In this document: positions 7,026 to 35,234 of the stretch, one piece after another
Layout: every line of letters starts with the position of its first letter
Position numbering within the stretch: the stretch's first letter is position 1
NCBI GenBank assembly: GCA_030041495.1
Contig: JASHNT010000061.1
Coordinates: 1-35,234, forward strand
Source: Bryobacteraceae bacterium
Lineage (GTDB): Bacteria; Acidobacteriota; Terriglobia; Bryobacterales; Bryobacteraceae
DNA: 35,234 nt
Direction of reading: 5' to 3'
Translations under genes and position numbers: made by a program
The notes under the pieces: model-generated
Databases searched by the model: none
What the model saw: the letters and a program-made list of their open reading frames with translations, nothing else
What the model was told of the DNA's origin: nothing

Positions 7026-7586
7026 GTGTCCAGAATAGGTAAGGTTCGGCCTGATCGTAACAGGCCTACCGTCGCGAAAACCTCGTCGAGACGGTTCGTA
7101 GTGGTCTTCGCTCTGGCCGCGCTAGTGCAATTTGGACTCCTGCTGACTCCATGGTTTCGGCCGGCGATAAACTCCCTTTCTTTTTTTGCGGTCCGCATGT
7201 CCTCCGCAACGATCAACCTGTTGGGGGGACACGCGCTCGCCAGAGGAGCGTCGCTGGTGTCGTCGGTGAACGGATTCGGTGTGGAAATGAAGGACGGTTG
7301 CAATGGAGTGAACGTCGTGATCCTTCTCTGGTCGGCGGTTCTTGCCTTCCCCGGATCAGTCCAATGGAAAGCGGCCGGATTGCTCGCCGGGGCCTTAGCC
7401 GTTCAGAGCCTCAATTTCGTGCGCTTTATTTCCTTGTTCTACCTCGGCCAGTATAGTTACTCCTGGTTCGAGTTCGCCCATCTGTACCTTTGGGAGACTT
7501 TGATCCTGCTCGACGGCCTGGTCTTTTTCGGGCTATGGGTGAAGTACTCCTCGCGGAGCTTCAAGGGTCTGCTTGCTGCAAAATAG
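7026..7586 (+). CDS. xrtH: exosortase H (IPTL-CTERM protein sorting transpeptidase)
   Basis: A 186-residue polytopic membrane protein. Exosortases cleave C-terminal PEP/IPTL-CTERM signals of exported proteins and attach them to the envelope. The family's catalytic triad is visible: Cys92 in KDGCNGVN, Arg133 in LNFVRFISLFYLG and His152 in FAHLYLWET. About four to five membrane segments surround these residues. The short length and the neighbouring IPTL-CTERM substrate point to the exosortase H subtype. Start is GTG 7026 without a clear ribosome site; about 24 mostly polar residues precede the first membrane segment, so a later start is possible. The next gene overlaps it by 14 nt, so the two are a coupled pair. 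Confidence 0.87.
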   Translation: MSRIGKVRPDRNRPTVAKTSSRRFVVVFALAALVQFGLLLTPWFRPAINSLSFFAVRMSSATINLLGGHALARGASLVSSVNGFGVEMKDGCNGVNVVILLWSAVLAFPGSVQWKAAGLLAGALAVQSLNFVRFISLFYLGQYSYSWFEFAHLYLWETLILLDGLVFFGLWVKYSSRSFKGLLAAK

Positions 7587-8241
7587 TCCAGCTCGCAACC
7601 TCCTGCTGCGGGCGATTGGTCTCCAGATCGTCGCGCTTGGAACCTGGTGGCTTGTTCTTTATCAACCATCGCTGATGCTTCTGCGTGTTGCGGTGGAGGT
7701 ACCCTTTACCTTTCTGCTAAGCCAGCAATCGCCGCCGCCGCTCCAACTGGATGCCAAGGGCGATTGGAATTTCAGCATTCCGGTGAACACGGTGGTGAAC
7801 GATCCGAAGGAGGGATCGGGCCCAAGGCAGGTCGGCTCCATCGATTTTGCCGCTCCACCTGAGAACGTGGCGCCGTTCACGACGGGCTGGTTCGTCTATC
7901 TCGGCTTGGCGCTGAGTCTTCCGTTTACGAAAGCCCATCTACGGCGGACGCTAATCGGCATCGCGATCCAGACCGCCGTCAGTGTGCTGGCTCTGTTTGT
8001 TTATGCCGAGGTGAACGCGCTGGGAATCCTAGCCAGCCTCCACGCGGCGCCGGCCCCCTTCTATGAATGGTTGCTGAAATACGCGTACCATATCGATTAC
8101 CTTGTGATTCCTTATGCGGGCCCGTTCTTGCTCCTGCTGGTGATTCATCCGGCCTGGTGGGCGCAACTAACCGGCGAAAGCAGTGAGGCCCCGTTAAAAC
8201 GAGGGGACGCCGCGATCTCCGCACAGACTGCCGCGCGCTAA
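7573..8241 (+). CDS. exosortase H-associated membrane protein
   Basis: A 222-residue protein starting at TTG 7573 inside the end of xrtH. It has a membrane segment near residues 10-40, a periplasmic-type soluble stretch of about 65 residues, then further membrane segments from about residue 105 (FTTGWFVYLGLALSLPF) to about 195 (GPFLLLLVIHPAWW). The position immediately behind exosortase H and this topology match the partner protein usually found with that exosortase. Its biochemical role is not established; a chaperone or accessory subunit for sorting is an inference from gene pairing. The substrate gene is convergent 35 bp downstream. Confidence 0.75.
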   Translation: MLQNSPARNLLLRAIGLQIVALGTWWLVLYQPSLMLLRVAVEVPFTFLLSQQSPPPLQLDAKGDWNFSIPVNTVVNDPKEGSGPRQVGSIDFAAPPENVAPFTTGWFVYLGLALSLPFTKAHLRRTLIGIAIQTAVSVLALFVYAEVNALGILASLHAAPAPFYEWLLKYAYHIDYLVIPYAGPFLLLLVIHPAWWAQLTGESSEAPLKRGDAAISAQTAAR

Positions 8242-8276: not shown

Positions 8277-9155
8277 CTACGCTGTCGCTCGGTGGCGTAG
8301 CTTCCAGCTTCCGAACCCAGCCAGCATCGCCGTCAGGAGAATCATGCCCCACTCAGACAGCGTCGGGACCGGTAGGCTGAGACCGGGCGGTTGGGTGCCG
8401 GGTGTCAAGCCGCCGAAGAAGATCCCGTAAAAGTTCCCGGAAGTGAGGGTCACGTTGGAGAAATTGATGGGGATCGGGGCGAAATCAGCCCCCGAGAAAG
8501 TGTGGCCGGTCCAGCTTGTAAGCGTTGGGCATGTACTGAGGTCGACCGGGGTTTGCGCCAAAGGCGTTGCGGGGATCGTGTGCCCGCCGCTGTTGACCTG
8601 GTAAATTACCGCAAATAGGCCGGTGGGAGGCGATCCCGACGGGTTCAGACAAGTCATCGGCATGCTGAGCCCGCTCAGGGTGCCGGTCGCACTGGCTAGG
8701 AATAGTTGGCCAAAGGAATCGCTGTTGAAACAGTTGAACAAAGTCAAGGGCGCCGTCTCCGTCGGGATATCGCACATGCCATTCCAGGTCGAATAGACGC
8801 CGCCCGGCACTACAGCAGTCTGCGGCACGCCGCCAATGCTATAAGCAATGGCGAAATCGCATGCCGAGGTAGTGGCCGTCAATGATCCGATGGCGCAATC
8901 GTCGAGCGTCGCGCCAGAGCCGCTAGCGAACTCGATGAAGGAGGCAGTATACCCCGCCGGACCGTTGTTCCAGTTGAAGTCAAACCCGATATTGACGCCG
9001 TTGGGGCCCGCGCCTGAGTCTCCCGGTCCCGCCGCAGTCCACGACGGTGGCGCCGCCACCAGAAGACTCAAGCCTCCACAGCAAGTGAGTTGCAGAAGCA
9101 GGAGCTTCAGAAAACGAAAAATCATTGGTTGTACCACAACGTTTGCTCGGACCAA
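8277..9155 (-). CDS. IPTL-CTERM sorting-signal protein, exported
   Basis: A secreted protein of about 290 residues. The C-terminus has the tripartite sorting signal: VPTLSEWG, a hydrophobic helix (MILLTAMLAGFG), then a basic end (KLRHR). The N-terminal hydrophobic stretch FLKLLLLQLTCCGG is a signal peptide. The middle is Gly/Ser/Thr-rich with paired Cys (DDCAIGS, TSACDFA, GMCDIP, FNCFNS, TCLNP, STCPT), as expected of a disulphide-bonded surface protein. It is the only sorting-signal protein in view and lies convergent to exosortase H, so it is probably a dedicated substrate. Start is uncertain: TTG 9155 sits 5 nt after AAGGAG, GTG 9161 overlaps that ribosome site, and ATG 9125 would begin directly at the signal peptide. 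Confidence 0.82.
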   Translation of the reverse strand: MVRANVVVQPMIFRFLKLLLLQLTCCGGLSLLVAAPPSWTAAGPGDSGAGPNGVNIGFDFNWNNGPAGYTASFIEFASGSGATLDDCAIGSLTATTSACDFAIAYSIGGVPQTAVVPGGVYSTWNGMCDIPTETAPLTLFNCFNSDSFGQLFLASATGTLSGLSMPMTCLNPSGSPPTGLFAVIYQVNSGGHTIPATPLAQTPVDLSTCPTLTSWTGHTFSGADFAPIPINFSNVTLTSGNFYGIFFGGLTPGTQPPGLSLPVPTLSEWGMILLTAMLAGFGSWKLRHRATA

Positions 9156-9161
9156 GTTCAC

Positions 9162-10511: not shown

Positions 10512-13001
10512 ATGAAGCGCTTCCTTTTTCCGGTTGCTGTTGTGGTTGCGATCGGTGCTCCTCTCGCGGCGAGCCAATCGACGGATTCCTACCGCGCGCT
10601 GATTTCGACGTATTGTTTCACTTGCCACAGCACACGCCTGAAAACGGGCGGTCTGGCGCTGGAGGGTCTGAACCTCGAATCGCCGGCGGATAACGCGCAA
10701 ATCTGGGAAAGGGTGTTGCGCAAGCTGCGGGGGCATCAGATGCCTCCGCCGGGCAGTCCACAACCGCCGCTGAGGGATGTCGATTCGTTCTCCACGTGGC
10801 TGGCCAACACGCTCGACACACATGCCAAGGGTCCGACCGCGGGCTACGTGCCGATCCAACGATTGAACCGGACGGAGTACGCCGCGGAAGTGAGAGCTCT
10901 GGTGGGCGTGGATGTGAACCCGAAGGAAGTTCTGCCGCAGGACATCCAGGTGGAGGGGTTCGATAACATCGCGGCTGCGCTGAGCGTGTCGCCCGCGTTT
11001 CTGGATCAATTTGTGGCGGCGGCGCGGCACGTTGCACAGCTTGCGGTTGGTAATCCCGATCCTCGCGTTTCCAGCACGACGTATGGGATCGATGCCAACC
11101 GGAATCCCGAAAATCCTCCGCCTCCCGGCACTCGGGAAGGCATCCGGTTCAGGCACAATTTCACGGCCGATGGCGAGTATCGCATCACGCTCGACAACCT
11201 GGCCGTGGGTCCGTACAGCAACGCTCTGGAGAATGAGAGCACGGTGGTGATTCTGATCGACAACAAGGTGGTGTTTCGCAAGTCAATCGGCGGGGCGGCG
11301 GATCTGGCGCTGGCGGATCGGCAAGCCGGAACCGGACGCGCGGAGATCATGGCTCGGTTTTCGAAGATTCCCGTGCAGGTGAAAGCCGGGGAGCACGACG
11401 TGGTGGTGGCGTTCGTGGACCGATCCCATGTGGAGACGGACGAGAACGTGGAGAACCTGGAAGGCTACAACGGCTTGACCGGCAGCCAGGCTCCCACTGA
11501 CAACAGAGCCCATCTTGTCGACGGCGTGGTGGTCGCGGGGCCGTACAATCCGACGGGCATTTCGAGAACGCCCAGCCGGGCGTTAATTTTTGTGTGCGAT
11601 CCCAAGACAGTAGGAGCCGGCGCAGGGCCGGTGCGGCCGTCGCAACAGCAAGGAACTTCGCCCTATCGAGCCGCGCCAGGCTCCGTTGTGCCGGCGAATT
11701 CAACGGGAGAATCCGCGTGTGCGAGGCAGATTACGGAGAATCTGGCTCGGCGGGCGTTCCGAAGACCGGTTAGCGCGGAAGATATGAACCGGCTGATGCC
11801 GTTTTATGAGGCGGGCCGCAAAGACGGCGGAACATTCGACCAGGGAATCGAGCAGGTGGTGGCCGCGGTGCTGGCCAGCCCGCAGTTTCTATATCGCGCG
11901 ATTCGGGGACCGAAAGGCACGTCGCCGGACACGGAGTTTGCGCTCACCGATCTGGAGCTGGCTTCGCGACTGTCCTTCTTCTTGTGGAACACGGGACCAG
12001 ACGACCAATTGTTGAAGCTGGCTGAGGCGAACGGGTTGAGCAAGCCGGGAGTGTTGAACCAGCAGGTGAAACGGATGCTGGCCGACCCGAAGGCCTCCAG
12101 CCTGGTCACCAGCTTTGCGATGAAGTGGCTGAATCTGACCGATCTCGATCAAGTGATTCCCGATCCGAAGTTGTTCCCCGGATTCACCGACGCACTGCGG
12201 CGCGATTTCCTGACGGAAGTTGAAGATTTCGTCGGCAGCGCCTTTTCCGATGACCGCAGCGTGGTGGATCTATTGACTGCTGACTATACCTACGTGAATG
12301 ACCGGCTGGCCCGCCATTACGGTATTTCCGGCGTCACGGGCTCGCAGTTCCGGAGGGTCTCGGCGATTCCGGACGTGCGCCGGGGATTGCTGGGCAAGGG
12401 CGCCATTCTGCTGCGGACATCGTACGGCGATCGTACCTCGCCCGTGCTGCGCGGAGCGTGGGTGCTGGATAAACTGCTCGGGACTCCGCCGACTCCGCCT
12501 CCGCCGGATACGGCGACGGACCTTTCGCAGAAGGCCGGCGAGCAACCGAAGACCGTGCGGGCGAGGCTGGAGCAGCATCGCTCCAAGGCGAGCTGCAGGA
12601 TGTGTCACGGGGTGATCGATCCGATCGGATTGGCTCTGGAGAATTACGATGCGATCGGCGAATGGCGGACGATGGACAGCCAGGCGCATGCTCCGATCGA
12701 TGCGAGCACGGTGCTGCCAACGGGAGTCGCGATCAATGGCGAGGGGGAACTGAGGAACCAGCTTGTGGCGCGACCCGAAGTTTTCGCGCAGACCGTGACC
12801 GAGAAACTGCTGATGTACGCGGTCAACCGGCAGCTCGAATATTTCGATATGCCTCAGGTTCGCGCCATTGTTCGCGGCGCGGCGAAGGATAACTACAAGC
12901 TGTCTTCGATCATACTGGGAATTGTGAATAGCGACGCTTTCCGCAAGCAGGGTGCGGAAGAGCCCGCGAAGGCGGCCGTAACGAAAGTGGCGGCCCGATA
13001 G
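10512..13001 (+). CDS. DUF1592-type exported haem protein (DUF1587/1595/1592/1588/1585 architecture)
   Basis: An 829-residue exported protein with a signal peptide of about 21 residues. Near the N-terminus is a haem-attachment site CFTCH (Cys35, Cys38, His39), then GHQMPPPG, typical of Planctomycete-type cytochrome c domains. The region PIQRLNRTEYAAEVRALVGVD is the DUF1587 start. A carbohydrate-binding-like beta domain follows (RHNFTADGEYRITLDNLAVGP region). The DUF1592 and DUF1588 blocks follow (LASRLSFFLWNTGPDDQL; ADYTYVNDRLARHYG; RTSYGDRTSPVLRGAWVLDKLLG). The DUF1585 end carries a second site, CRMCH (about 694-698), next to GVIDPIGLALENYDAIGEWR. Such proteins are thought to act in envelope redox or polymer breakdown; the actual reaction is unknown. 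The DUF1552 gene follows after 8 nt, so they form an operon. Confidence 0.9.
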   Translation: MKRFLFPVAVVVAIGAPLAASQSTDSYRALISTYCFTCHSTRLKTGGLALEGLNLESPADNAQIWERVLRKLRGHQMPPPGSPQPPLRDVDSFSTWLANTLDTHAKGPTAGYVPIQRLNRTEYAAEVRALVGVDVNPKEVLPQDIQVEGFDNIAAALSVSPAFLDQFVAAARHVAQLAVGNPDPRVSSTTYGIDANRNPENPPPPGTREGIRFRHNFTADGEYRITLDNLAVGPYSNALENESTVVILIDNKVVFRKSIGGAADLALADRQAGTGRAEIMARFSKIPVQVKAGEHDVVVAFVDRSHVETDENVENLEGYNGLTGSQAPTDNRAHLVDGVVVAGPYNPTGISRTPSRALIFVCDPKTVGAGAGPVRPSQQQGTSPYRAAPGSVVPANSTGESACARQITENLARRAFRRPVSAEDMNRLMPFYEAGRKDGGTFDQGIEQVVAAVLASPQFLYRAIRGPKGTSPDTEFALTDLELASRLSFFLWNTGPDDQLLKLAEANGLSKPGVLNQQVKRMLADPKASSLVTSFAMKWLNLTDLDQVIPDPKLFPGFTDALRRDFLTEVEDFVGSAFSDDRSVVDLLTADYTYVNDRLARHYGISGVTGSQFRRVSAIPDVRRGLLGKGAILLRTSYGDRTSPVLRGAWVLDKLLGTPPTPPPPDTATDLSQKAGEQPKTVRARLEQHRSKASCRMCHGVIDPIGLALENYDAIGEWRTMDSQAHAPIDASTVLPTGVAINGEGELRNQLVARPEVFAQTVTEKLLMYAVNRQLEYFDMPQVRAIVRGAAKDNYKLSSIILGIVNSDAFRKQGAEEPAKAAVTKVAAR

Positions 13002-13009
13002 GAGATTGC

Positions 13010-14347
13010 ATGTTCATCACCAAGAAGCACATTCCTCGCAGAAGGGTGTTGAAGGCTGCGGGAGTGTCGTTGGGGTTGCCGTTTCTGGACGCGATGGTGC
13101 CGGCGGGCAGGGCTTTTGCGCAAACCGCCGCGGCTCCCAAGTTGAGGATGGGCTTTTTCTATCTGCCTCACGGCGCGATCATGTACAACACGTCGCATGG
13201 TCCGGCGATGGACAAGTGGACGCCGTCGGGCGCGGGTGAGAGTTTCAAGCTCAACACAATTCTGGCTTCGCTCGAGCCCTACAAGAAATACGTTTCGTCG
13301 TTCGGGAATCTGGAAAATAAGGCGACCGCGGGGTCTGTTCACACCTTCACTCCAGCGACCTGGCTGAGCGCGACGCGTCCGGACACCGGCGCTCCGCACG
13401 CGCATATGGCCACGACTCTGGACCAGGTGATCGCGAAGATTATCGGGCAGGAGACCAGGTTGCCATCGCTTGAGATCGCGTCGGAGACGATTGTTCAATC
13501 GGCGGCCGGCGGAGGCGGATCGTATACCACGTTATCCTTCCGCGACGCGGAATCGCCACTGCCGATGGAGCCGAATCCGCGCAAGGTTTTTCTTCAGTTG
13601 TTCGGCGAGGGCGACACGCCGCAAGAGCGGGCGTCGATCTATCATCAAACCGGCAGCCTTCTGGATCTGATCCTGGACGGCACCAAGAGCATGCAACGCG
13701 ATCTAGGAAGCCAGGACAAAGCGGTGCTCGACGGGTACCTCGATAGCGTCCGCGAGATCGAGCGGCGCACCGAGAGAGCAGCGGCGCAGGATCTTTCCGC
13801 GCTCAAGATTCCGGAAGCTCCGGTGGGCGAACTGGATTCCTTTCCGGAGCAGGTGAAGTTGATGTTCGATTTGTTGGCGCTCGCCTATCAGGCCGATTTG
13901 ACTCGCGTGGCGTCTTACATCATGGTCGCGGAGGGCACCAACCGGACTTACAACCACATCGGCATTCCGGATTCTTTCCATCCGGTATCGCACCACGCCA
14001 ACGATATCGAGAGAATCAACAAACTGGTCAAGATCCAGACCTGGCACCTGGAGCAGTTCACCCAATTTGTCGCGAAGCTGGCATCGACGCCGGAGGGCGA
14101 GGGAACGCTGCTGGATCATTCGATTCTGATGTATGGATCGAACATGAGCAACAGCGACCTGCACAACAATTATCCGGAGCCGAATATTTTGGTCGGCGGC
14201 GGCAACGGCAAGATGAAGCTCGGCGGCCAGCATATCGTGCTGCCGGAACGCACGCCCATCGCTAACCTGCATTTGACCCTACTGCAAAAAGTCGGCGTGG
14301 AGCGGGACAAGTTCGGCGACAGCACCGGCACCATCGCGGGCGTGTAA
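13010..14347 (+). CDS. DUF1552 family twin-arginine exported protein
   Basis: A 445-residue protein starting at ATG 13010 with AGGAG upstream. The N-terminus has a Tat-type signal (PRRRVLKAAGVSLGLPFLDA) cut near AFAQ. The mature domain opens with RMGFFYLPHGAIMYNTSHG and contains GSVHTFTPATWLS, SHHANDIERINKLVKIQTWH and DHSILMYGSNMSNSDLHNN, which resemble the alkaline-phosphatase-like DUF1501/DUF1552 group. These are regularly encoded directly after DUF1592 haem proteins, as here (8 nt). Tat export suggests folding or cofactor insertion in the cytoplasm. The substrate is unknown. Confidence 0.9.
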   Translation: MFITKKHIPRRRVLKAAGVSLGLPFLDAMVPAGRAFAQTAAAPKLRMGFFYLPHGAIMYNTSHGPAMDKWTPSGAGESFKLNTILASLEPYKKYVSSFGNLENKATAGSVHTFTPATWLSATRPDTGAPHAHMATTLDQVIAKIIGQETRLPSLEIASETIVQSAAGGGGSYTTLSFRDAESPLPMEPNPRKVFLQLFGEGDTPQERASIYHQTGSLLDLILDGTKSMQRDLGSQDKAVLDGYLDSVREIERRTERAAAQDLSALKIPEAPVGELDSFPEQVKLMFDLLALAYQADLTRVASYIMVAEGTNRTYNHIGIPDSFHPVSHHANDIERINKLVKIQTWHLEQFTQFVAKLASTPEGEGTLLDHSILMYGSNMSNSDLHNNYPEPNILVGGGNGKMKLGGQHIVLPERTPIANLHLTLLQKVGVERDKFGDSTGTIAGV

Positions 14348-26881: not shown

Positions 26882-27874
26882 TCACGATTCGTTGCGGCTA
26901 CTAAAAGCAGCCGTAGGGTGGTAAGTGCGCAGTTCGGCGGCGATTTCTCCGGCGGCCTTCCGTGCTGCCTCCACCGCGCCTTTCTCGAAGCTGATCGCGC
27001 CGACCTTGGGATGTCCGCCTCCGCCGTAGCGCTCGCAGATGGAAGCAAGATTAAAGGTGATCGGCTTCTTGGCCCACGGATTCGAGCCCACCGAAACCTT
27101 GGTGCGGAAGCTCGACGTGCTCACCGAAACCGTATAAACCGAATCGGGGAACAGATAGTAGGGGATGAACTTGTTGTAGCCTTCCAAGTCATGCCCCACC
27201 AGATCGAAGTACACCACGCCGTCGATGGCCTGCGCCTGCTTGCCGATGATGTCGATCGACTGTAGATGGCGCCGGTACAGCGGCTGGTACACCGCCTGAA
27301 TCTGCGGGTCCTCCACGATCTCGGCCAACTTACGGTGCCGCATCATGCCGATAATCGTCTGCACGATCTCCGACCCCTTCGCGCCCTCGATCACCAGCGT
27401 CAGCCGCATCGCCGGAGCCACCAGGTTCACGGCTTCCTCGGCCGAAGCGTATCGCGCCCCATCCACGATGTCGGCCCATTCCACCAGCTCTGCCAGGTCC
27501 GGCGCGTCGAAACCGAACCGCTCCCGTGCTACCGTGGCAATGTACATGGTGCAGGAGCGGAAGCTCGGGTCGTACATCTTGCGCCCGCTGGTGTCATGCC
27601 GGAAATGCTCGGCGTCTTCCGGAGTCAGAAACGCGCTCTGATGATGGTCGAACCACCACGTAAGCCTTGGATCCGTGGAATATTTGAAATCCACGATCGC
27701 GTTCACGTCGCCGTCAAAATCCTCCGGCTCGAACAATTGTGACGCCTTATGCGCCAGCCCCGTGTAACAGAATTGGGCATCCGGGTAGAACCTCGCTTCC
27801 ACAAACCGGCTGAAGAAGGCGGCCGAGGCCGCTCCGTCGAAGCAATGGTCGTGATAAAGAATTCTGACCCGCAT
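26882..27874 (-). CDS. DHH-family phosphoesterase
   Basis: A 330-residue protein from ATG 27874. It has the DHH-type metal-site motifs: ILYHDHCFDGAASAAFF near the N-terminus (D-x-DG-like), NAIVDFKYS, WWFDHHQSAF (the DHH motif) and EWADIVDGARY. The C-terminal DHHA1 signature is ERYGGGGHPKVGAISFEKG. It lacks RecJ's OB-fold and the CBS insert of pyrophosphatases. Relatives include nanoRNases and cyclic-dinucleotide phosphodiesterases, so an oligoribonucleotide or c-di-AMP-type substrate is plausible but not assigned. Confidence 0.87.
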   Translation of the reverse strand: MRVRILYHDHCFDGAASAAFFSRFVEARFYPDAQFCYTGLAHKASQLFEPEDFDGDVNAIVDFKYSTDPRLTWWFDHHQSAFLTPEDAEHFRHDTSGRKMYDPSFRSCTMYIATVARERFGFDAPDLAELVEWADIVDGARYASAEEAVNLVAPAMRLTLVIEGAKGSEIVQTIIGMMRHRKLAEIVEDPQIQAVYQPLYRRHLQSIDIIGKQAQAIDGVVYFDLVGHDLEGYNKFIPYYLFPDSVYTVSVSTSSFRTKVSVGSNPWAKKPITFNLASICERYGGGGHPKVGAISFEKGAVEAARKAAGEIAAELRTYHPTAAFSSRNES

Positions 27875-27961
27875 GATGGAAAACGTATCCGGGAAAACTT
27901 GCTAGTGTCTCGCAAACGGGGGGCCTTGCGCAAGTCCGTTTTTTCTGCGACCCTTTACAAC

Positions 27962-27991
27962 TTGCGGCATCCTACCCTTCATGGGTAGAAT
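27962..27991 (+). promoter_or_regulatory. acpP promoter with overlapping palindromic operator
   Basis: TTGCGG (27962-27967) and TAGAAT (27986-27991) are separated by 18 bp. CTACCC-TTCAT-GGGTAG (27972-27988) is a 6-bp-arm palindrome that covers the spacer and the start of the -10. A repressor bound there would block RNA polymerase. The acpP ribosome site GGAGG lies further down at about 28016. Confidence 0.45.
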
Positions 27992-28024
27992 CAATGAGTT
28001 TGTAGGCAAAATTCTGGAGGATGC

Positions 28025-28258
28025 ATGTCCGTTGAGCAGAAGGTCAAACAAATCATCGTCGAGCAACTCGGCGTGGATGAGGCCCAAGTCGACCCCACAG
28101 CGAGTTTCGTCGATGACCTTGGCGCCGACTCCCTCGACATCGTCGAGCTCGTGATGGCGTTCGAGGAAGCGTTCGACCTCGACATTCCCGATGAGGACGC
28201 CGAGAAGATCGTCACGGTCAAAAACGCGATCGATTACATCGAGTCCAAGAAGAAGTAA
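28025..28258 (+). CDS. acpP: acyl carrier protein
   Basis: A 77-residue acidic four-helix protein that carries acyl chains on phosphopantetheine at Ser36, in the motif [20 protein letters not shown] 28025 has CTGGAGG about 6 nt upstream. FabF follows after 23 nt, the standard fatty-acid-synthesis order. It is probably the housekeeping carrier, and possibly also supplies the downstream sphingolipid genes. Confidence 0.96.
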
Positions 28259-28281
28259 TCCGCCGTCACGGAGTTCCCCTA

Positions 28282-29532
28282 TTGCAACGTAGAGTCGTAG
28301 TGACCGGGGCCGGACTGTTGACTTCGGTCGGAATCGGCACCGAAGCCACTTGGGAAGCGATCAAGCGAGGCACCAGCGGCATCAGCCCCATTACGTCTTT
28401 TGACGCCACCCATTTCAGTTGCCGCATCGCCGGCGAAGTGAAAGACTTCGATCCAGCGGCCTACATCGAAAAAAAAGAAATCAAGAAAATGGGGCGGTTC
28501 ATTCAGTTCGCCATTGCCGCCTCCGATTTCGCCGTCGCCGGAGCCGGTCTCAAGATCGATCCGAGCGATACTGACGCCGCCGAACGGGCCGGCGTTTATA
28601 TCGGCAGCGGCATCGGCGGATTCGAAGTGATCGAGCGCGAGCACAAGAAGCTTCTGGAGGGTGGCCCCGGCCGCATCTCCCCGTTTTTCATTCCCGCGAC
28701 TATCGTCAATCTGGCGTCAGGCTGGGTCTCCATCCGCGCCGGCGCGAAGGGTCCCAATTCCGCCACGGCGACCGCTTGCACCAGCAGCGCTCACAGCATT
28801 GGCGATTCTTACCGCATCATCCAGCGCGACGATGCCGACCTGATGATCTGCGGAGGCGCCGAAGCCGCCGTCACGCCCATGAGCATCGGCGGATTCGCGG
28901 CCTTGCGTGCGCTGAGCCATCGCAACGATGAGCCCGCCCGTGCTTCGCGTCCCTGGGATGCCGGCCGCGACGGCTTCATCGTCGGCGAAGGCGCGGGTAT
29001 CCTGGTTTTAGAGGAACTGGAGCACGCCCGCAAGCGCGGCGCTCCCATCCTGGCGGAAGTGGCCGGTTACGCGACCACCGGCGATGCGTTCCACATCACT
29101 TCTCCGCCCGACGATGGCGACGGAGCCTATCGCGTGATGAAGCTGGCGCTTAAAGATGCAGGGCTCCAGCCGAGTCAGATCGATTACATCAACGCCCACG
29201 GCACCTCCACTCCAGTGGGTGACCGCATCGAAACCATTGCCATCAAGCGCGCTTTCGGTGAGCACGCGAAAAAGGTCGCGGTCAGCTCCACCAAATCCAT
29301 GACTGGGCATCTGCTTGGTGGGGCAGGCGGAATCGAGGCCGGCATCTGCGTCCTGGCTATCCGCGATCAGATCGCGCCCCCCACCATCAACTACGAAATC
29401 CCCGATCCCGAGTGCGACCTCGATTACGTTCCCAATCACGCGCGGCCGATCAAGATCAATTACGCTCTGACCAACTCTTTCGGCTTCGGTGGTCCTAACG
29501 GCTGCCTCATCTTCAAGAAATTCGATTCATGA
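28282..29532 (+). CDS. fabF: beta-ketoacyl-ACP synthase II
   Basis: A 416-residue condensing enzyme that elongates acyl-ACP with malonyl-ACP. Catalytic residues are Cys166 (TATACTSSAHS), His306 (NAHGTSTPVGD), Lys338 and His343 (STKSMTGHLLGGAGG). Start TTG 28282 gives MQRRVVVTGAGLLTSVG, the standard opening, 23 nt after acpP. The ending NSFGFGGPNGCLIFKKF is also typical. It shares a transcription direction with etfBA, 10 nt away. Confidence 0.96.
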   Translation: MQRRVVVTGAGLLTSVGIGTEATWEAIKRGTSGISPITSFDATHFSCRIAGEVKDFDPAAYIEKKEIKKMGRFIQFAIAASDFAVAGAGLKIDPSDTDAAERAGVYIGSGIGGFEVIEREHKKLLEGGPGRISPFFIPATIVNLASGWVSIRAGAKGPNSATATACTSSAHSIGDSYRIIQRDDADLMICGGAEAAVTPMSIGGFAALRALSHRNDEPARASRPWDAGRDGFIVGEGAGILVLEELEHARKRGAPILAEVAGYATTGDAFHITSPPDDGDGAYRVMKLALKDAGLQPSQIDYINAHGTSTPVGDRIETIAIKRAFGEHAKKVAVSSTKSMTGHLLGGAGGIEAGICVLAIRDQIAPPTINYEIPDPECDLDYVPNHARPIKINYALTNSFGFGGPNGCLIFKKFDS

Positions 29533-29542
29533 AGATTTTGCC

Positions 29543-30304
29543 ATGAAAATCCTCGTGGCCATCAAGCAAGTGCCCGTGCGCGATTCGCCCCTGCGAGTCA
29601 ACGCCGCCGGCAACTGGATCGCCGAAGACGATCTCAGCTTCGAAATCAATGAGCCGGACGCCTATGCGCTCGAAGAAGCATTGCAACTCAAGGAAAAACA
29701 CTCCGGCGAGGTGATCGCCATCTGCGCCGGCCCGGCTCGCGCGCAGCAGACCATCCGCGAGGCTCTCGCCAAAGGCGCCGACCGCGCCATTCACATCGAA
29801 ACCGGAAACCTGGCGGCCTTCGACACGCTTGGGATCGCCAAGCTTCTCGCGGCAGAAGCAGGCTCGGAGAGCCCCGATCTGATCCTCACCGGCCTCCAGT
29901 CCGACGATCTGGGCTACGGCCAAACCGGAGTGGTCCTGGCCGAGCTCATGGGCCTTCCGCACTCGACGATCATCATGCAGGTGGAAGTGAAGGGCTCCGC
30001 CATTCGCGTCAAGCGCGAGCTCGAAGACGGCTGGTTCCAGCACATCTCGATGCCTCTGCCTGCCGTGCTCACCATCCAGAGCGGCATCAATAAGCTGCGC
30101 TACGCCACGCTGATGGGCATCAAGAAAGCCAAGACCAAGGAGATTCGCCGCGTCTCAGCCGCCGCGCCCGCGGAGCCCACCGTGCGCATCGAAAAGATCT
30201 ACGCGCCCCAAAAGGCCAAGCAGGCGCAAATCTTCTCCGGCGACCCCAAGACCGCCGCCGCCGCTCTGGTCGAAAAACTGAAGTTCGAGGCGCGCGTGCT
30301 ATGA
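29543..30304 (+). CDS. etfB: electron transfer flavoprotein beta subunit
   Basis: A 253-residue ETF beta subunit that, with EtfA, carries electrons from acyl-CoA and other flavin dehydrogenases to the quinone pool. Landmarks are MKILVAIKQVPV, FEINEPDAYALEEALQL, ADRAIHIE and PDLILTGLQSDDLGYGQTGVVLAELMG, followed by the PLPAVLTIQSGINKLRYATL block. Start ATG 29543 is favoured over the upstream open frame, which lies inside fabF. Stop and the etfA start share ATGA. Confidence 0.94.
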   Translation: MKILVAIKQVPVRDSPLRVNAAGNWIAEDDLSFEINEPDAYALEEALQLKEKHSGEVIAICAGPARAQQTIREALAKGADRAIHIETGNLAAFDTLGIAKLLAAEAGSESPDLILTGLQSDDLGYGQTGVVLAELMGLPHSTIIMQVEVKGSAIRVKRELEDGWFQHISMPLPAVLTIQSGINKLRYATLMGIKKAKTKEIRRVSAAAPAEPTVRIEKIYAPQKAKQAQIFSGDPKTAAAALVEKLKFEARVL

Positions 30305-31266
30305 AAGTCCTCGCCATTCTCGAACACAACGCCGGACGCCTGCACCGCATGTCCTGGGAGTGCCTCGCCGCCGTCCAGCAGTTGGCATCCGAAGCCGAAG
30401 CCGCGCTCGTCGGCTCCAGTATCGCCGAGCTTGCTCGGGAAGCCGCGGCCAAGCAGGCCGCCCGTGTCTGGGCCGTCGAACACCCGCTTCTCGAAAACTA
30501 CACCGCCGACGGCTATACTGCGGCCCTCGAACAACTGCTTCGCAAGACCACCCCCGATCTGGTCCTGCTTCCGCACACCTACCAAACCCGCGACTTCGCG
30601 CCCAAGCTGGCAACCCGCTTCGGCCGAGCCCTCATCAGCGACGCCATCGCCGCGGGCCCCGAATCTGGCTCCGTCACCTTCGTCCGTCAATTCTTCCAGG
30701 GCAAGCTCAGCGGCGACGTCCGTGCTGCCGGCCCTGGCCCACACTTCGCCTCGCTCCAAGCGGGTGCATGGCGAACTGATGCGCTCGCCGCCGGCTCGGC
30801 AACCATCGAAAGGTTTGCGCCGCAATTGGACGCCGCACAAATCCGTCAGACGCCCGAAGCCCCCTTCCGCGAAGCCGAGCGCGCCGTCGATCTCACTGCC
30901 GCGGAGCTGATCGTCTCGGTCGGCCGCGGCATCGGCGAAAAAGACAGAATCCCCGTGGTCGAAGACCTCGCTAAGGCGCTCGGCGCGGAGCTCGCAGCCT
31001 CCCGCCCCATCTGCGACGCCGGTTGGCTTCCCATGGAGCGCCAGGTCGGCAGCTCCGGCCAAACCGTTTCGCCCAAGCTCTATCTCGCGGTCGGCATCTC
31101 CGGCGCCATCCAGCACCTGGTCGGCATGAAAGGCTCCAAAACCATCGTGGCTATTAACAAGGACGCCAACGCGCCCATCTTTGAAGTTGCAGATTACGGC
31201 ATCGTCGGCGACCTTTTCGAAGTAGTCCCCGCACTGGCCGCCGAGATCCGAAAAGTCAAATCCTAA
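30301..31266 (+). CDS. etfA: electron transfer flavoprotein alpha subunit
   Basis: A 321-residue FAD-binding subunit of ETF. The N-terminal half is the Rossmann-like domain ([34 protein letters not shown]). The C-terminal FAD domain is clear: [60 protein letters not shown] and [20 protein letters not shown]. It is coupled to etfB by ATGA. No dehydrogenase partner is in view. Confidence 0.95.
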
Positions 31267-31320
31267 TCCGCACGCCCGTCGTGCGATAGTGGAACAAGGT
31301 CCGGGAGTGGAGACAGGGTA

Positions 31321-31971
31321 TTGAAGACGCTTCTTTTCCTATGCTGTAGCGCTGTTTTTGCTTTTGAAGCTTTGGATTCGCCGTTGGCATTTGTGGTTCT
31401 GGACACCGCTAAAACGCCTGCCGGAAAGCTCCCCAACGGGTGGGAGCTAAAGGTGAACGCCGGAAAGCCGGACGCCGCGATCGCCGATGACAGCGGCGCA
31501 CCCGTGCTGCATCTCAAGAGCGTCAAGTCGTCGTTCGCGCTCGAACGCCCCGTCGACGTCGATCCCTCCAAAATGCCCTACCTGGCTTGGCGCTGGAAGG
31601 TTACCCAGCTACCCGCCGGCGGCGACTTCCGCCACTTCACCAAGGACGATCAGGCTGCGCAAGTCATGATCGCCTTCGACGACCGTCGTGTGCTCAGCTA
31701 CATCTGGGATACCACAGCTCCCCAAGGAACCACGCAGAGCCAGACTGCGCTGCCGCTCGTGCACATCTTTGTCATCGTCTGCCGCTCCGGCGCGACCGAC
31801 GAAAACCGCTGGCTGGGGGAAACTCACAACGTCGCCGCGGACTATCTCAAGGCGTACGGCAAGCCCGCGCCCCATGTCAAAGGCCTGCGCCTCCAGATCA
31901 ATTCCCAGCACACCGGCACTTCCGCGGAGAGCTACTTCACGGACGTGGAATTCCACAGCACGCCGCAATAA
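31321..31971 (+). CDS. DUF3047 family exported protein
   Basis: A 216-residue protein starting at TTG 31321 with GGAGACAGGG shortly before. The short hydrophobic start (KTLLFLCCSAVFAF) is a signal peptide. The domain shows the DUF3047 pattern MPYLAWRWKVTQLPAGGDFRHFTKDDQAAQVMIAF, then LSYIWDTTAPQGTTQ and GLRLQINSQHTGTSAESYFTDVEF. A periplasmic beta-sandwich is likely and the function of the family is unknown. It overlaps the SDR gene by one base (TAATG), so it belongs to the sphingolipid-type operon. A role in lipid handling is only suggested by that position. Confidence 0.82.
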   Translation: MKTLLFLCCSAVFAFEALDSPLAFVVLDTAKTPAGKLPNGWELKVNAGKPDAAIADDSGAPVLHLKSVKSSFALERPVDVDPSKMPYLAWRWKVTQLPAGGDFRHFTKDDQAAQVMIAFDDRRVLSYIWDTTAPQGTTQSQTALPLVHIFVIVCRSGATDENRWLGETHNVAADYLKAYGKPAPHVKGLRLQINSQHTGTSAESYFTDVEFHSTPQ

Positions 31972-32930
31972 TGATTCTCATCACCGGAGGAACCGGCTTC
32001 ATCGGAAGCCATCTGGTGGAAGCTCTGTGCAACCGCCGCGAGCCGGTTCGATGTCTGATCCGCAACGGCCGCAAGCTTCCCTCAGGCGCGCTAGCCTGCC
32101 ACGGCGATCTCGTCTCAGGCGCTAGCATCGAAGCGGCCCTCGAAGACGTCGATACGGTGATCCATCTCGCCGGCGTCACCAAAGCGCTTTCGCGCGATGA
32201 GTACTACGCGGGAAACGCCCGCGCCACCGAGAACCTGGTCAAAGCGATTCTCCAAGCCCGCCGCGAAATCCGCCTGGTCCACGTCAGCTCGCTCGCCGCC
32301 ATCGGACCCGGCCTCAACGGCGCGCCCGTCACGGAAGATACCGAACCTCACCCCGTCTCGTATTATGGGAAGTCGAAACTGGAAGGCGAGAAAATCGTGC
32401 ACGCGCTGCTGCCCCAGGCCGTCATCGTCCGGCCGCCTGTGGTCTACGGGCCCCGCGATACCGATGTCTTGCAGTTGCTAAAATCCGTCAACCAGGGTTT
32501 CGCCGTCGAAATTGCCGGCCCCGAACGCTGGGCACAGGTGATCTACGTCAAGGATCTCGTCGAAGGAATGCTCGCTGCCGCCCGCTCACCCCAAGCCTGT
32601 GGCAGAGCCTATTTTCTCGCCCACCCCCTAGCAGTTTCCTGGGCCGAGCTCCGTTCTACCGCCGCGCGTATCATCGGCAAGCAGCCCCGCGTGCTCAAAA
32701 TCCCGTCGAGCCTGGCCTTCGCCGTCGCCGCCTGCGCCGAGCTTTGGTCCAAGCTTACCCGCAAGCCCGGCATCATCTCGCGCGATAAAATCCGCGAAGC
32801 CCTCTGCCCCGCATGGACCTGCGATACCGGCCGCGCCGCAGCCGAGCTCGGCTTCCACGCGCAGACCAATCTCGAGACCGGCCTCGCCGCGACCCTCGCC
32901 TGGTACAAGGAGGCCGGATGGTTGAAATGA
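31971..32930 (+). CDS. NAD-dependent epimerase/dehydratase (extended SDR), candidate CerR-type 3-ketoceramide reductase
   Basis: A 319-residue extended short-chain dehydrogenase from ATG 31971. The nucleotide-binding loop is GGTGFIG (6-12), with the active-site Ser in VHVSSLAA (about 106-107) and the YxxxK pair Tyr132/Lys136 in SYYGKSKLEGEK, then VIVRPPVVYGPRDTDV. By family alone it could act on a nucleotide sugar or a lipid. Position three genes before an SPT-type gene, with a GNAT-fold ceramide synthase candidate between, favours reduction of a 3-keto-sphingoid or ceramide, as for CerR in Caulobacter. Its start overlaps the DUF3047 stop by one base and its end overlaps the PAP2 gene by 13 nt. 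Confidence 0.88.
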   Translation: MILITGGTGFIGSHLVEALCNRREPVRCLIRNGRKLPSGALACHGDLVSGASIEAALEDVDTVIHLAGVTKALSRDEYYAGNARATENLVKAILQARREIRLVHVSSLAAIGPGLNGAPVTEDTEPHPVSYYGKSKLEGEKIVHALLPQAVIVRPPVVYGPRDTDVLQLLKSVNQGFAVEIAGPERWAQVIYVKDLVEGMLAAARSPQACGRAYFLAHPLAVSWAELRSTAARIIGKQPRVLKIPSSLAFAVAACAELWSKLTRKPGIISRDKIREALCPAWTCDTGRAAAELGFHAQTNLETGLAATLAWYKEAGWLK

Positions 32931-33865
32931 GCGGGCTTGACGCATCCACGCTTCGCCCAGGTTTATGGGCCGTCGACAAGATTCATCTCGCCTTCCTCAC
33001 CGTTCTCGGCGCCTTCCTCATCGCCTACTCGAGGGATCTCCCTGACGCCCCCACGCTCCTCGCCATCCACATTGTCTCCGTAGCCCTGATTCTCCTGGCC
33101 TCTCGCGGGCGCCCTCTAAAGCACAGCCGCCTGGTCTATCTCTTCCGCCATTGGTATCCGCTCCCCTTGGTCTCCTTCTGCTACCGCGAAATGGCGATCC
33201 TGATCCCTGTGGTCTGGGGCCGCAGCTTCGATGGCCTGCTCGCCGACCTCGACTTCGCCATCTGGCGTGTCAACCCCACGGTTTGGCTGGAGCGGATCCA
33301 GACTCCCAACTTTACGGAGTTCCTGGAGATCGTCTACGCTCTGTTCGTTCCCGCTGTTCTTCTGATCCCCATCATCCTGTGGGCCCAGCGCCGCTACAAG
33401 GATTTCCGCTATGCCGCTTTCCTCACCGCCTTGGGATTCCTGGTCTCCTACGTCGGCTATATGATTGTCCCGGCGCGCGGTCCGCGATTCTTGCTGGCCC
33501 CCCTCCAGCACCACGCCCTTGAAGGCCGCTGGTTCTTTCACTGGATGCGCTCCACTTTGGACCGCCTGGAGTCCGCCCACTACGACTGTTTCCCCAGTGG
33601 CCACGTCGAGCTCACCATCCTGGCGTGGTGGCTGAGCCGTCAAATCTCAAAATGGCTCGGTCGGACCTATTTCATCTATACTCTTTGCATTATTTTTGCT
33701 ACAGTTTACCTTCGATACCACTATACGGTCGACCTTGCCGCCGGAGCTCTGGCCGCTGCGTTCTTAATTCGCAGTGCGCCCGGGTTCTATCGGCGATTAG
33801 GCGGTTCGGAGCTGGCCGAAAGCGGATCGAGGCTGGCAGGAAGAGAGGAACCAGTTGGCACTTGA
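32918..33865 (+). CDS. PAP2-superfamily membrane protein, Aur1-like; candidate sphingolipid headgroup transferase or phosphatase
   Basis: A 315-residue polytopic protein from ATG 32918 (AAGGAGG 5 nt upstream); ATG 32927 is an alternative. About six membrane segments are visible (near 24-38, 46-62, 82-100, 135-155, 168-185, 250-282). Catalytic-type motifs are MIVPARGPRFLL (about 182-193), CFPSGHVE with His229, and TVYLRYHYTVD with His268 and Asp272, matching the PAP2/Aur1 H-x3-D arrangement. The first motif lacks the classical KxxxxxxRP spacing, as in the Aur1 (inositol phosphorylceramide synthase) branch. It sits between the SDR and the acyltransferase with overlapping ends. Transfer of a phospho-headgroup to ceramide is an inference; dephosphorylation of a lipid phosphate is the main alternative. 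Confidence 0.82.
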   Translation: MVEMSGLDASTLRPGLWAVDKIHLAFLTVLGAFLIAYSRDLPDAPTLLAIHIVSVALILLASRGRPLKHSRLVYLFRHWYPLPLVSFCYREMAILIPVVWGRSFDGLLADLDFAIWRVNPTVWLERIQTPNFTEFLEIVYALFVPAVLLIPIILWAQRRYKDFRYAAFLTALGFLVSYVGYMIVPARGPRFLLAPLQHHALEGRWFFHWMRSTLDRLESAHYDCFPSGHVELTILAWWLSRQISKWLGRTYFIYTLCIIFATVYLRYHYTVDLAAGALAAAFLIRSAPGFYRRLGGSELAESGSRLAGREEPVGT

Positions 33866-34970
33866 AGTCATTACAGCGGAAGGCAAGCAAGCGCTGAAGG
33901 ATTTCGTCGAGTTTCCCTATTCGCTCTATCGCGGCGACCCGCACTGGGTCCCGCCTCTGCGGATCGCCGTCAAGGAACTGCTCGACCGCAAGAAGCATCC
34001 CTTCTACGCCAACGCCGATGCCGAGTTCTTCCTCGCTAAGCGCGATGGCCGCGTGGTGGGCCGCATCGCCGCCATCGTGGACCGCAACCACAACAAGTTT
34101 CACGAAGAGAACGCCGGATTCTTCGGTTTCTTCGAATCGATTGACCACGCCGAAGTGGCCAGGGCTCTGCTCCAGCGCGCGCGAGAATGGGTCTTTGCCA
34201 AAGGTGCGAAGTTCCTGCGCGGGCCCATGAACCCCTCCACCAATTATGAATGCGCCATGCTCATCGACGGCTTCGAATCCAGCCCGATGATCATGATGAC
34301 CTACAATCCGCGCTACTATCCCAAGCTCATGGAGCAGGCCGGTCTCACCAAGGTCAAGGATCTTTACGCCTGGGTCAACACGGCTGGAGCGACCCAGATC
34401 GACCGGATCGCCCGCGTGGCAGACCACAAACTTTCCAAAAGCGGCATCACCGTCCGCCCCATTAACATGAAGGATTTCGATGGCGACGTCGCCCGCGTCT
34501 GGGAGGTCTACAACTCGGCGTGGGAGCGCAATTGGGGATTTGTGCCCATGACCCGCGAGGAATTCTTCCTGATGGGCAAGGAGATGAAGCAGATTCTCAA
34601 GCCGGAGTTGGTGCTGATCGGCGAAAAGCAAGGCAAAACTATCGGCTTCGCCCTGGCCCTTCCTGATGTCAATGTCGCCCTCAAACCGGCCGGCGGCAAG
34701 CTGCTCCCCACGGGCCTCCTCAAAATTCTGTATTATCAACGATTGATCAAAAGTGTGAGGGTACTGGCCCTGGGCGTGGTGGAAGAGTACCGTACCTCTG
34801 GCGTCGCGCCCGCGTTTTACGCTACGCTGGTGCGGACCGCCAAGAAATTGGGCTACGACGGGAATTGTGAGATGTCGTGGATCTTGGAAAATAATGTTTT
34901 GATGAACCGGTCGCTCGAAGCGATGGGCGCCAAGCACTATAAGACGTACCGGATCTACGAATGGCACTAG
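33855..34970 (+). CDS. YghO-like GNAT-fold acyltransferase, candidate bacterial ceramide synthase
   Basis: A 371-residue soluble protein from TTG 33855, overlapping the PAP2 stop by 11 nt. The opening FVEFPYSLYRGDPHWVPPLR, then KKHPFYANADAEFFLAKRDGRVVGRIAA, GFFGFFES, GPMNPSTNYECAMLIDGF and TYNPRYYPKLMEQAGL, is the pattern of the YghO-like family. The C-terminal half carries a GNAT-like acyl-donor region (VLALGVVEEYRTSGVAPAFYATLVRTAKKLG). In Caulobacter a member of this family (bCerS) N-acylates the sphingoid base. Adjacent location of an SPT-type gene, overlapping by 10 nt, supports the same role here. Acyl-donor type (CoA or ACP) cannot be read. Confidence 0.85.
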   Translation: MALEVITAEGKQALKDFVEFPYSLYRGDPHWVPPLRIAVKELLDRKKHPFYANADAEFFLAKRDGRVVGRIAAIVDRNHNKFHEENAGFFGFFESIDHAEVARALLQRAREWVFAKGAKFLRGPMNPSTNYECAMLIDGFESSPMIMMTYNPRYYPKLMEQAGLTKVKDLYAWVNTAGATQIDRIARVADHKLSKSGITVRPINMKDFDGDVARVWEVYNSAWERNWGFVPMTREEFFLMGKEMKQILKPELVLIGEKQGKTIGFALALPDVNVALKPAGGKLLPTGLLKILYYQRLIKSVRVLALGVVEEYRTSGVAPAFYATLVRTAKKLGYDGNCEMSWILENNVLMNRSLEAMGAKHYKTYRIYEWH

Positions 34971-35234
34971 ACCCATCCCAGACGGCCATCGCCCCGCAGA
35001 AGAGCGCCTGCAACGATATTTTCGAGAAGTGCCGCGTCTTCACGCGCCCGCACGATCTGCAGCAGGCCGGCCTGTACATGTATTTCGAGACCTTCGGCGA
35101 CCGCGAAGGGTGCGCCCCCGGCGAAGTTCGTCTGGGCTCGGACGGCAAGAACGTCCTGATGTTCGGGTCGAATGACTACCTGGGCCTGATCACCGACCCT
35201 CGCGTCACCGAAGCCGCCGCCGGCGCCATCCATA
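34961..35234 (+). CDS. spt: serine palmitoyltransferase-type alpha-oxoamine synthase (5' part only)
   Basis: The first 91 codons of a PLP-dependent enzyme are visible from ATG 34961, which overlaps the upstream stop by 10 nt; the rest is outside the window. The region LQQAGLYMYFETFGDREG followed by LGSDGKNVLMFGSNDYLGLI (about residues 58-77) and TDPRVTEAA is the N-terminal substrate-entry pattern of the alpha-oxoamine synthase family and especially of bacterial serine palmitoyltransferases. The PLP lysine lies outside. Other family members (KBL, BioF, HemA, CqsA) are less likely because of the neighbours. It would condense serine with an acyl thioester to 3-keto-sphinganine. Confidence 0.82.
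   Translation, partial: MALDPSQTAIAPQKSACNDIFEKCRVFTRPHDLQQAGLYMYFETFGDREGCAPGEVRLGSDGKNVLMFGSNDYLGLITDPRVTEAAAGAIH

Follow-up and report, generated by a model that had tools for sequence, protein, structure and literature searches.

The window analysed here is a 35,234-nucleotide stretch of DNA from a Bryobacteraceae bacterium of the phylum Acidobacteriota. It makes up the whole of one contig (C14; GenBank JASHNT010000061.1) in a genome of 6.12 Mb that is 98% complete (GCA_030041495.1), and it ends in five open reading frames (ORFs) on the forward strand that we predict to form an operon for the synthesis of ceramide and a phosphosphingolipid. The first ORF, which starts with TTG, encodes a DUF3047 protein of 216 amino acids (positions 31321-31971; PF11249, E = 2.3e-29). 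It is followed by an extended short-chain dehydrogenase/reductase (SDR) of 319 amino acids, predicted to be a CerR-type ketone reductase (31971-32930; PF01370, Epimerase, E = 7.9e-34), and by a PAP2_3/Aur1-like integral membrane protein of 312-315 amino acids, a predicted phosphosphingolipid synthase (32918 or 32927 to 33865; PF14378, E = 6e-18). Next come a GNAT-fold N-acyltransferase of 371 amino acids, again with a TTG start and predicted to be a YghO/bCerS-like ceramide synthase (33855-34970; Acetyltransf_1, E = 3e-7), and the first 91 codons of a serine palmitoyltransferase (SPT)-type alpha-oxoamine synthase (AOS; 34961-35234), where the contig ends. From their coordinates, successive ORFs overlap by 1, 13, 11 and 10 nucleotides; the PAP2 gene has two candidate ATG starts, at 32918 and 32927, and use of the latter would make the second overlap 4 nucleotides. 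A preliminary description of the window had reported the same families and overlaps, and both were confirmed, the overlaps by the ORF coordinates and the families of the first four genes by Pfam. The 91-codon AOS stub by itself had no Pfam match.

The truncated gene was completed by extending the contig, a check that the preliminary description had proposed. Another contig of the same genome (C58) opens with the 197 bases that close the window, identical at every position, and its bases 198-1168 encode the remainder of the AOS. The joined protein is 414 amino acids long and carries its pyridoxal phosphate (PLP) lysine, K263, within a GTFSKA motif. Because the gene after the AOS on C58 is convergent, the cluster is taken to consist of these five genes. 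Its GC content is 0.607, compared with 0.612 for the window, and an Rfam scan of positions 27000-35234 returned nothing at the gathering score.

Judged by its sequence, the AOS is of the SPT type, apart from BioF and KBL. Among PDB sequences, its score was 342 bits with the Sphingobacterium SPT (SmSPT), and 217, 211 and 192 bits with cysteate acyltransferase, KBL (1fc4) and BioF (1bs0). It scored about 255 bits with the SPTs 2x8u and 2jgt, which we take to be alphaproteobacterial; its greater similarity to the Sphingobacterium enzyme thus sets it apart from the Caulobacter set. The best NCBIfam model was the Bacteroidota-type SPT (SerpalmtaseCFB). In a tree of 55 AOS sequences, the window copy falls within a 42-row SPT clade (support 100/99) that also includes SmSPT, E. 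coli BL21 Spt and Myxococcus/myxobacterial SPT, while E. coli BioF and KBL lie outside it and another AOS of the same genome (L008) groups with E. coli BioF, on long branches. A BioF/KBL identity, which the preliminary description had named as the outcome of a full-length phylogeny that would count against it, was therefore rejected. The active-site residues of SmSPT have been described (passages of PMC10196870), and seven of these were mapped to the AOS by alignment to SmSPT. All seven are kept: N52, H138, S185, D210, H213, T241 and K244 of SmSPT correspond to N71, H157, S204, D229, H232, T260 and K263 here.

The GNAT shows full-length homology to YghO of E. coli BL21 (235 bits in phmmer, 34% identity), the N-acyltransferase (aca/cerS) of the E. 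coli pathway gene set (PMC9386255, in part), and sequence comparison thus leads us to predict a ceramide synthase of the bCerS/YghO type. No credible relative of the GNAT was found among PDB sequences, no NCBIfam family was matched by the window GNAT, a Myxococcus GNAT or E. coli YghO, and blastn of the GNAT against E. coli genomes gave no match. In these comparisons, Caulobacter CerS and CerR were represented by their E. coli BL21 homologues. The SDR, likewise a predicted CerR-type ketone reductase, falls within a 36-row clade (support 97/97) together with Epi of E. coli BL21 (EcEpi), a CerR homologue, and SDRs encoded beside SPT genes of several phyla. The tree took the best 18 of the 27 SDR paralogues of the host genome, and 17 of these 18 lie outside the clade, as does E. 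coli RfaD. These placements favour the reading of the preliminary description, which had proposed comparison of the GNAT and the SDR with bCerS and CerR as a check. Since the Rossmann motif of the SDR begins at residue 5 (residue 8 in EcEpi), the protein has scarcely any space for an N-terminal signal peptide. This bears on the Caulobacter CerR, for which a periplasmic location has been reported and the source of reducing power left unexplained (in the relevant passages of PMC11087976).

The PAP2 protein combines a PAP2_3 domain, the His and His-Asp motifs and an overall Aur1-like fold, and it most likely works like an inositol phosphorylceramide (IPC) synthase. When a profile of 33 PAP2 relatives was compared with PDB sequences, Aur1, the enzyme with which fungi add a phosphate headgroup as inositol-phosphorylceramide synthase, ranked first (E = 3e-4), with an alignment that spans positions 65-282 of the 293 in the profile. 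For the structural model, which has a pLDDT of 91.5, the only Foldseek hits to reach E<=1e-3 were two fungal Aur1 structures (3.1e-4 and 4.1e-4; TM 0.61 for the former), and the FPS-x-H and HYxxD motifs of the fungal enzyme align with those of the window protein, which differs from fungal Aur1 in its low identity of about 15%. The motifs PS[GSL]H and HYxxD are present in all 33 aligned relatives. The host genome additionally encodes a PF07994 protein, which we take to be a myo-inositol-phosphate synthase (MIPS), and a CDP-alcohol transferase resembling phosphatidylinositol-phosphate (PIP) synthase, both on contigs other than those of the operon. The best models for the CDP-alcohol transferase were the archaetidylinositol-phosphate, BT_1523-type and PIP synthases, all under cut-off.

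The DUF3047 protein is predicted to be an exported accessory protein. Its N-terminus is hydrophobic and signal-like as judged from hydropathy, and its structural model (mean pLDDT 90.7) consists of a hydrophobic helix at residues 2-17 followed by strands that form a beta-sandwich of the jelly-roll type. Foldseek matches included doublet-microtubule proteins (presumably of the CFAP20 type), GH11/GH12 folds and carbohydrate-binding modules, at TM scores of 0.37-0.54, and a profile search of PDB sequences found nothing credible. The one paper found to name DUF3047 in the open-licence literature searched assigns no function to it. The gene occurs at 27 of the 33 family loci, and none of the nine non-carrier genomes tested has it. 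The latter count is independent; the presence of DUF3047 in 20 of 20 carriers is no independent test, as most of these had already been seen with the gene. Across 297 genomes of the phylum, DUF3047 was found in 18, 12 of which are not GNAT carriers. As a general marker of sphingolipid synthesis it was accordingly rejected, and it looks instead like a general exported domain that has been recruited here.

To describe conservation, the GNAT was searched in 121 genomes of the family and in 297 of the phylum, and matches at E<=0.001 were obtained in 40 and 85 of them, respectively. The family list of 37 GNAT genomes excludes three weak matches (G326, G317 and G342; 23-27% identity) and keeps three fragments (G313, G344 and G388). 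Of its 36 strong carriers besides the window, gene order was inspected in the 33 other than these fragments. The complete order DUF3047-SDR-PAP2-GNAT-SPT occurs on one strand in 23 of these 33 loci, and the first four genes are present in three more whose SPT side is cut by the contig end (L126, L141 and L144), so that the survey of gene order proposed in the preliminary description found the arrangement kept in the family. One locus is without DUF3047 (L142), two have PAP2-GNAT-SPT (L146 and L149) and three have PAP2-GNAT (L150, L151 and L153, the last cut at a contig end); PAP2 is present in all 33. In a further locus, L135 of genome G406, the SDR is missing and the other four genes keep their order, a natural case in which a different reductase may or may not stand in. 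Consecutive genes in the family loci, with starts picked by script, are separated by -35 to +11 nucleotides at 108 of 114 junctions and by +19 to +83 at the other six. Because both the gene order and the close spacing are repeated across the family, the cluster is beyond what chance would produce. The preliminary description had also suggested that PAP2 and DUF3047 may define a variant of the pathway; this is supported in part, PAP2 being constant and Aur1-like and DUF3047 being present in most of the loci and absent from the non-carriers.

Co-occurrence of the GNAT and the SPT was counted genome by genome, with strong matches set at at least 200 bits for the GNAT and at least 300 bits for the SPT. 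Among the 297 phylum genomes, 57 of the 68 with a strong GNAT also have a strong SPT, and 218 have neither; in the family, both are found in 32 of 121 genomes, the GNAT alone in five, the SPT alone in none and neither in 84. Relatedness between genomes is not corrected for in these counts, so that p values calculated from them overstate independence, and the thresholds drop genomes such as G258, G274, G088, G229 and G269, in which an AOS of 226-287 bits lies near the GNAT. The five family genomes with the GNAT alone are G390 and G396, where contigs end, G388, whose GNAT is interrupted, and G311 and G323, which have no strong SPT; the loci of the last two are L150 and L151, where the PAP2-GNAT pair thus stands in a genome without a strong SPT match. 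Named GNAT relatives at 67-72% identity belong to Bryobacteraceae, Bryobacterales, Solibacteraceae and Candidatus Solibacter metagenome-assembled genomes (MAGs). In 80 named loci chosen by GNAT similarity, many of them cut by contig ends, SPT lies within reach in 67, SDR in 46, PAP2 in 18 and DUF3047 in five, and in 40 other phylum loci SPT, SDR and PAP2 lie within reach in 20, 18 and five.

Other arrangements were seen at several of these loci. At L155 and L156 (G259 and G009), the SPT-type gene adjoins a FabF-like ketosynthase, with a weak acyl carrier protein (ACP) match as well at L155, and the GNAT is on another contig, which suggests a differently supplied acyl donor. At L024, L028 and, in part, L023 (G258, G274 and G196), the GNAT is accompanied by a fatty acyl-AMP ligase resembling AasR and by an AOS that is divergent (218-227 bits), possibly a further version of the pathway. 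Three loci of myxobacterial MAGs (L177, L178 and L185) have two GNAT-profile ORFs around SPT and SDR.

Upstream of the cluster lies a block of ACP, FabF and the beta and alpha subunits of electron transfer flavoprotein (ETF), which ends 54 nucleotides ahead of DUF3047. Contamination of the genome bin by this contig was judged unlikely, as FabF, ETF beta and ETF alpha share 60-79% protein identity with three genomes of the same genus and the GC content is even. These three genomes keep the upstream block, but none of them has the GNAT, a strong SPT or DUF3047, so that even within the genus, across the four members covered here, the operon is patchy; the genes that follow ETF alpha in them differ from those on C58. 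Because the SPT and SDR copies of the window sit with those of the same family in the trees, transfer within the family and repeated loss would leave the same picture.

Taken together, these findings suggest that the five genes form a single operon that makes (dihydro)ceramide and then a phosphosphingolipid, a reading to which we assign a probability of roughly 0.78. The assignment to ceramide in the preliminary description is thereby supported by the placements of SPT, GNAT and SDR and by the conserved order. Gene content, conserved catalytic residues, clades, order and co-occurrence were observed, and we infer the chemistry: the substrates, the sequence of N-acylation and reduction, the headgroup and the role of DUF3047. 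In the proposed pathway, the SPT would condense L-serine with a long-chain acyl thioester to give 3-oxo-sphinganine, the acyl donor probably being acyl-CoA because the cluster contains no acpR/aasR pair. The GNAT would then N-acylate this product and the SDR would reduce its 3-keto group, in either order, to yield dihydroceramide. The Aur1-like protein would move a phospho-headgroup from a glycerophospholipid onto the C1 hydroxyl of ceramide. Since the genome encodes the PF07994 protein and the PIP-synthase-like enzyme, phosphoinositol is the likeliest headgroup, with phosphoethanolamine as an alternative. Finally, the exported jelly-roll DUF3047 protein may act on the product outside the cytoplasm by binding, presenting or moving it. 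In its fullest version, this scheme would take Bryobacteraceae from serine all the way to phosphoinositol-ceramide by means of one ceramide operon that includes the Aur1-type synthase; the SDR would work in the cytoplasm, and DUF3047 would represent a new class of exported proteins that bind or traffic sphingolipids. This version is a tentative proposal that we consider doubtful as a whole.

Several observations weigh against the operon reading or parts of it. The AOS is below every curated NCBIfam SPT cut-off (443.9 bits vs 640, 360.4 vs 500 and 288.4 vs 670), and for that reason it is labelled SPT-type and not a curated equivalog. Three GNAT-adjacent AOS genes of other lineages (L023, L024 and L207) fall outside the SPT clade, and the AOS of G311 and G323, which have PAP2-GNAT, is weaker (258 and 274 bits). 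Eleven phylum genomes carry the GNAT but no strong SPT, and another 11 have a strong SPT without a strong GNAT. For the SDR, a long-branched paralogue of the host genome (L259) sits inside the clade, the branch of EcEpi is long and, as noted, 18 of 27 paralogues entered the tree. The inositol-phosphate synthase models gave 126.5-155.2 bits against cut-offs of 170-350, and PF07994, found in all 29 family genomes tested, occurs in carriers and non-carriers alike and does not track the operon; its presence thus permits an inositol headgroup without proving it. With regard to the AOS itself, the BioF model was matched at 373.2 bits, as would fit a BioF/KBL-type enzyme in an unrelated cofactor or envelope operon, an explanation that the SPT clade without E. 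coli BioF and KBL, the grouping of L008 and the co-occurrence with a YghO-type GNAT make highly improbable. Amino-acid choice varies among members of the AOS family, SmSPT takes L-alanine and glycine too, at much lower efficiency (passages of PMC10196870), and three SmSPT positions are changed here (Ser53 to Asp, Ala79 to Ser and Met271 to Val), so that the enzyme might use alanine, glycine or cysteate and yield a 1-deoxyceramide, a related N-acyl amino-ketone lipid or a sulfonolipid. We consider such a product improbable, because none of the seven mapped active-site residues is changed, SmSPT scores far above the solved cysteate acyltransferase, and the predicted headgroup transferase encoded nearby would require a C1 hydroxyl, which serine supplies.

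The remaining alternative retains ceramide synthesis and reassigns the PAP2 protein, as a phosphatase of the LpxE/PgpB type acting on ceramide-1-phosphate or another lipid phosphate. The protein does belong to the PAP2 superfamily, 11 of its 33 relatives match the LpxE phosphatase model (E<=0.01, best 4.5e-5), two undecaprenyl-diphosphatase models are matched by four and three of them and PgpB by three, and the PDB sequences that the profile ranks after Aur1 are LpxE, YodM and PgpB. Moreover, on NF052609, the model for bacterial phosphoinositol-dihydroceramide synthase, the window protein reaches 19.2 bits against a cut-off of 480, and hits to that model at E<=0.01 were obtained for 11 of the 33 relatives, with 5e-9 as the lowest value; as the window protein is far below the curated cut-off, we have not filed it as an IPC synthase. 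The phosphatases, however, match the C-terminal part of the profile, and Aur1 alone aligns over most of its length. In the fold comparison, the nearest phosphatase was 5jki at 0.063, followed by LpxE at 0.20 and PgpB at 0.27, all well behind the two Aur1 structures. The K-x6-RP motif, which we take to be a signature of lipid phosphatases, is absent from all 33 relatives, and Pfam finds no lipid kinase among the five genes. On balance, a phosphatase seems rather unlikely, and we retain the reading of the PAP2 protein as an Aur1-like headgroup transferase.

Homologues of these sphingolipid genes have been characterised in Caulobacter (PMC11087976), E. coli BL21 (PMC9386255) and Bacteroides (PMC9246714; each source in the parts relevant here). 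As in the Caulobacter crescentus and E. coli BL21 set (aasR, cerR/epi, acpR, spt and cerS/aca), homologues of spt, cerS and cerR are present in the window, here in one cluster; unlike that set, the cluster contains no acpR or aasR and has two extra genes, PAP2 and DUF3047. AasR had no match in the window and the first 12 kb of C58, which is where it was searched for, and the only ACP near the cluster is the one preceding fabF, which scores 26 bits with E. coli AcpR. The Bacteroides thetaiotaomicron pathway (SPT BT_0870; BT_1522 to BT_1526) is similar in having an AUR1-like enzyme, BT_1522, which is required for phosphoinositol-dihydroceramide (passages of PMC9246714). The present genome likewise has a PF07994 protein and a BT_1523-like CDP-alcohol transferase. 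However, the AUR1-like gene of Bacteroides lies in an inositol-lipid cluster (same passages), whereas here it lies in the ceramide operon with the inositol genes on other contigs, and the window protein scores low on NF052609, as given above. In Bacteroidota, spt, cerS and cerR are described as not being close together (PMC11334938, in part). The same source, a survey of the Black Sea, reports Spt-like genes in MAGs of 38 phyla, partly with CerR and bCerS nearby; its section on these clusters does not name Acidobacteriota, PAP2 or DUF3047, and Acidobacteriota may be among the 38 phyla.

Soil lipidomics has found ceramides to be correlated with an acidobacterial amplicon sequence variant (ASV), and its authors took this as reason to ask whether sphingolipids are made by the phylum (PMC9969633, in part). 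Among the papers listed in searches of the open-licence literature, none dealt with acidobacterial sphingolipid genes. The operon names genes and lineages in which sphingolipid production by Acidobacteriota can be tested. It also packs cerS, cerR and spt closely into a single unit, whereas bacterial cerS has been stated to occupy a separate operon in all cases (a passage of PMC11324152). In addition, it offers a likely headgroup enzyme and ties the DUF3047 family to sphingolipid genes in most of the family loci. If the one-operon route to phosphoinositol-ceramide were true, such lipids would characterise a subset, patchy in its distribution, of a phylum that is common in soil.

Elsewhere in the window, two adjacent hydrophobic ORFs (7026-8241) have no Pfam match and resemble exosortase-like membrane proteins by eye, and near them a protein with a C-terminal sorting-like tail is encoded at 8277-9161. 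At 10512-14347, a planctomycete-type cytochrome protein (DUF1592/1588/1585/1595/1587) adjoins a DUF1552 (HXXSHH) protein.

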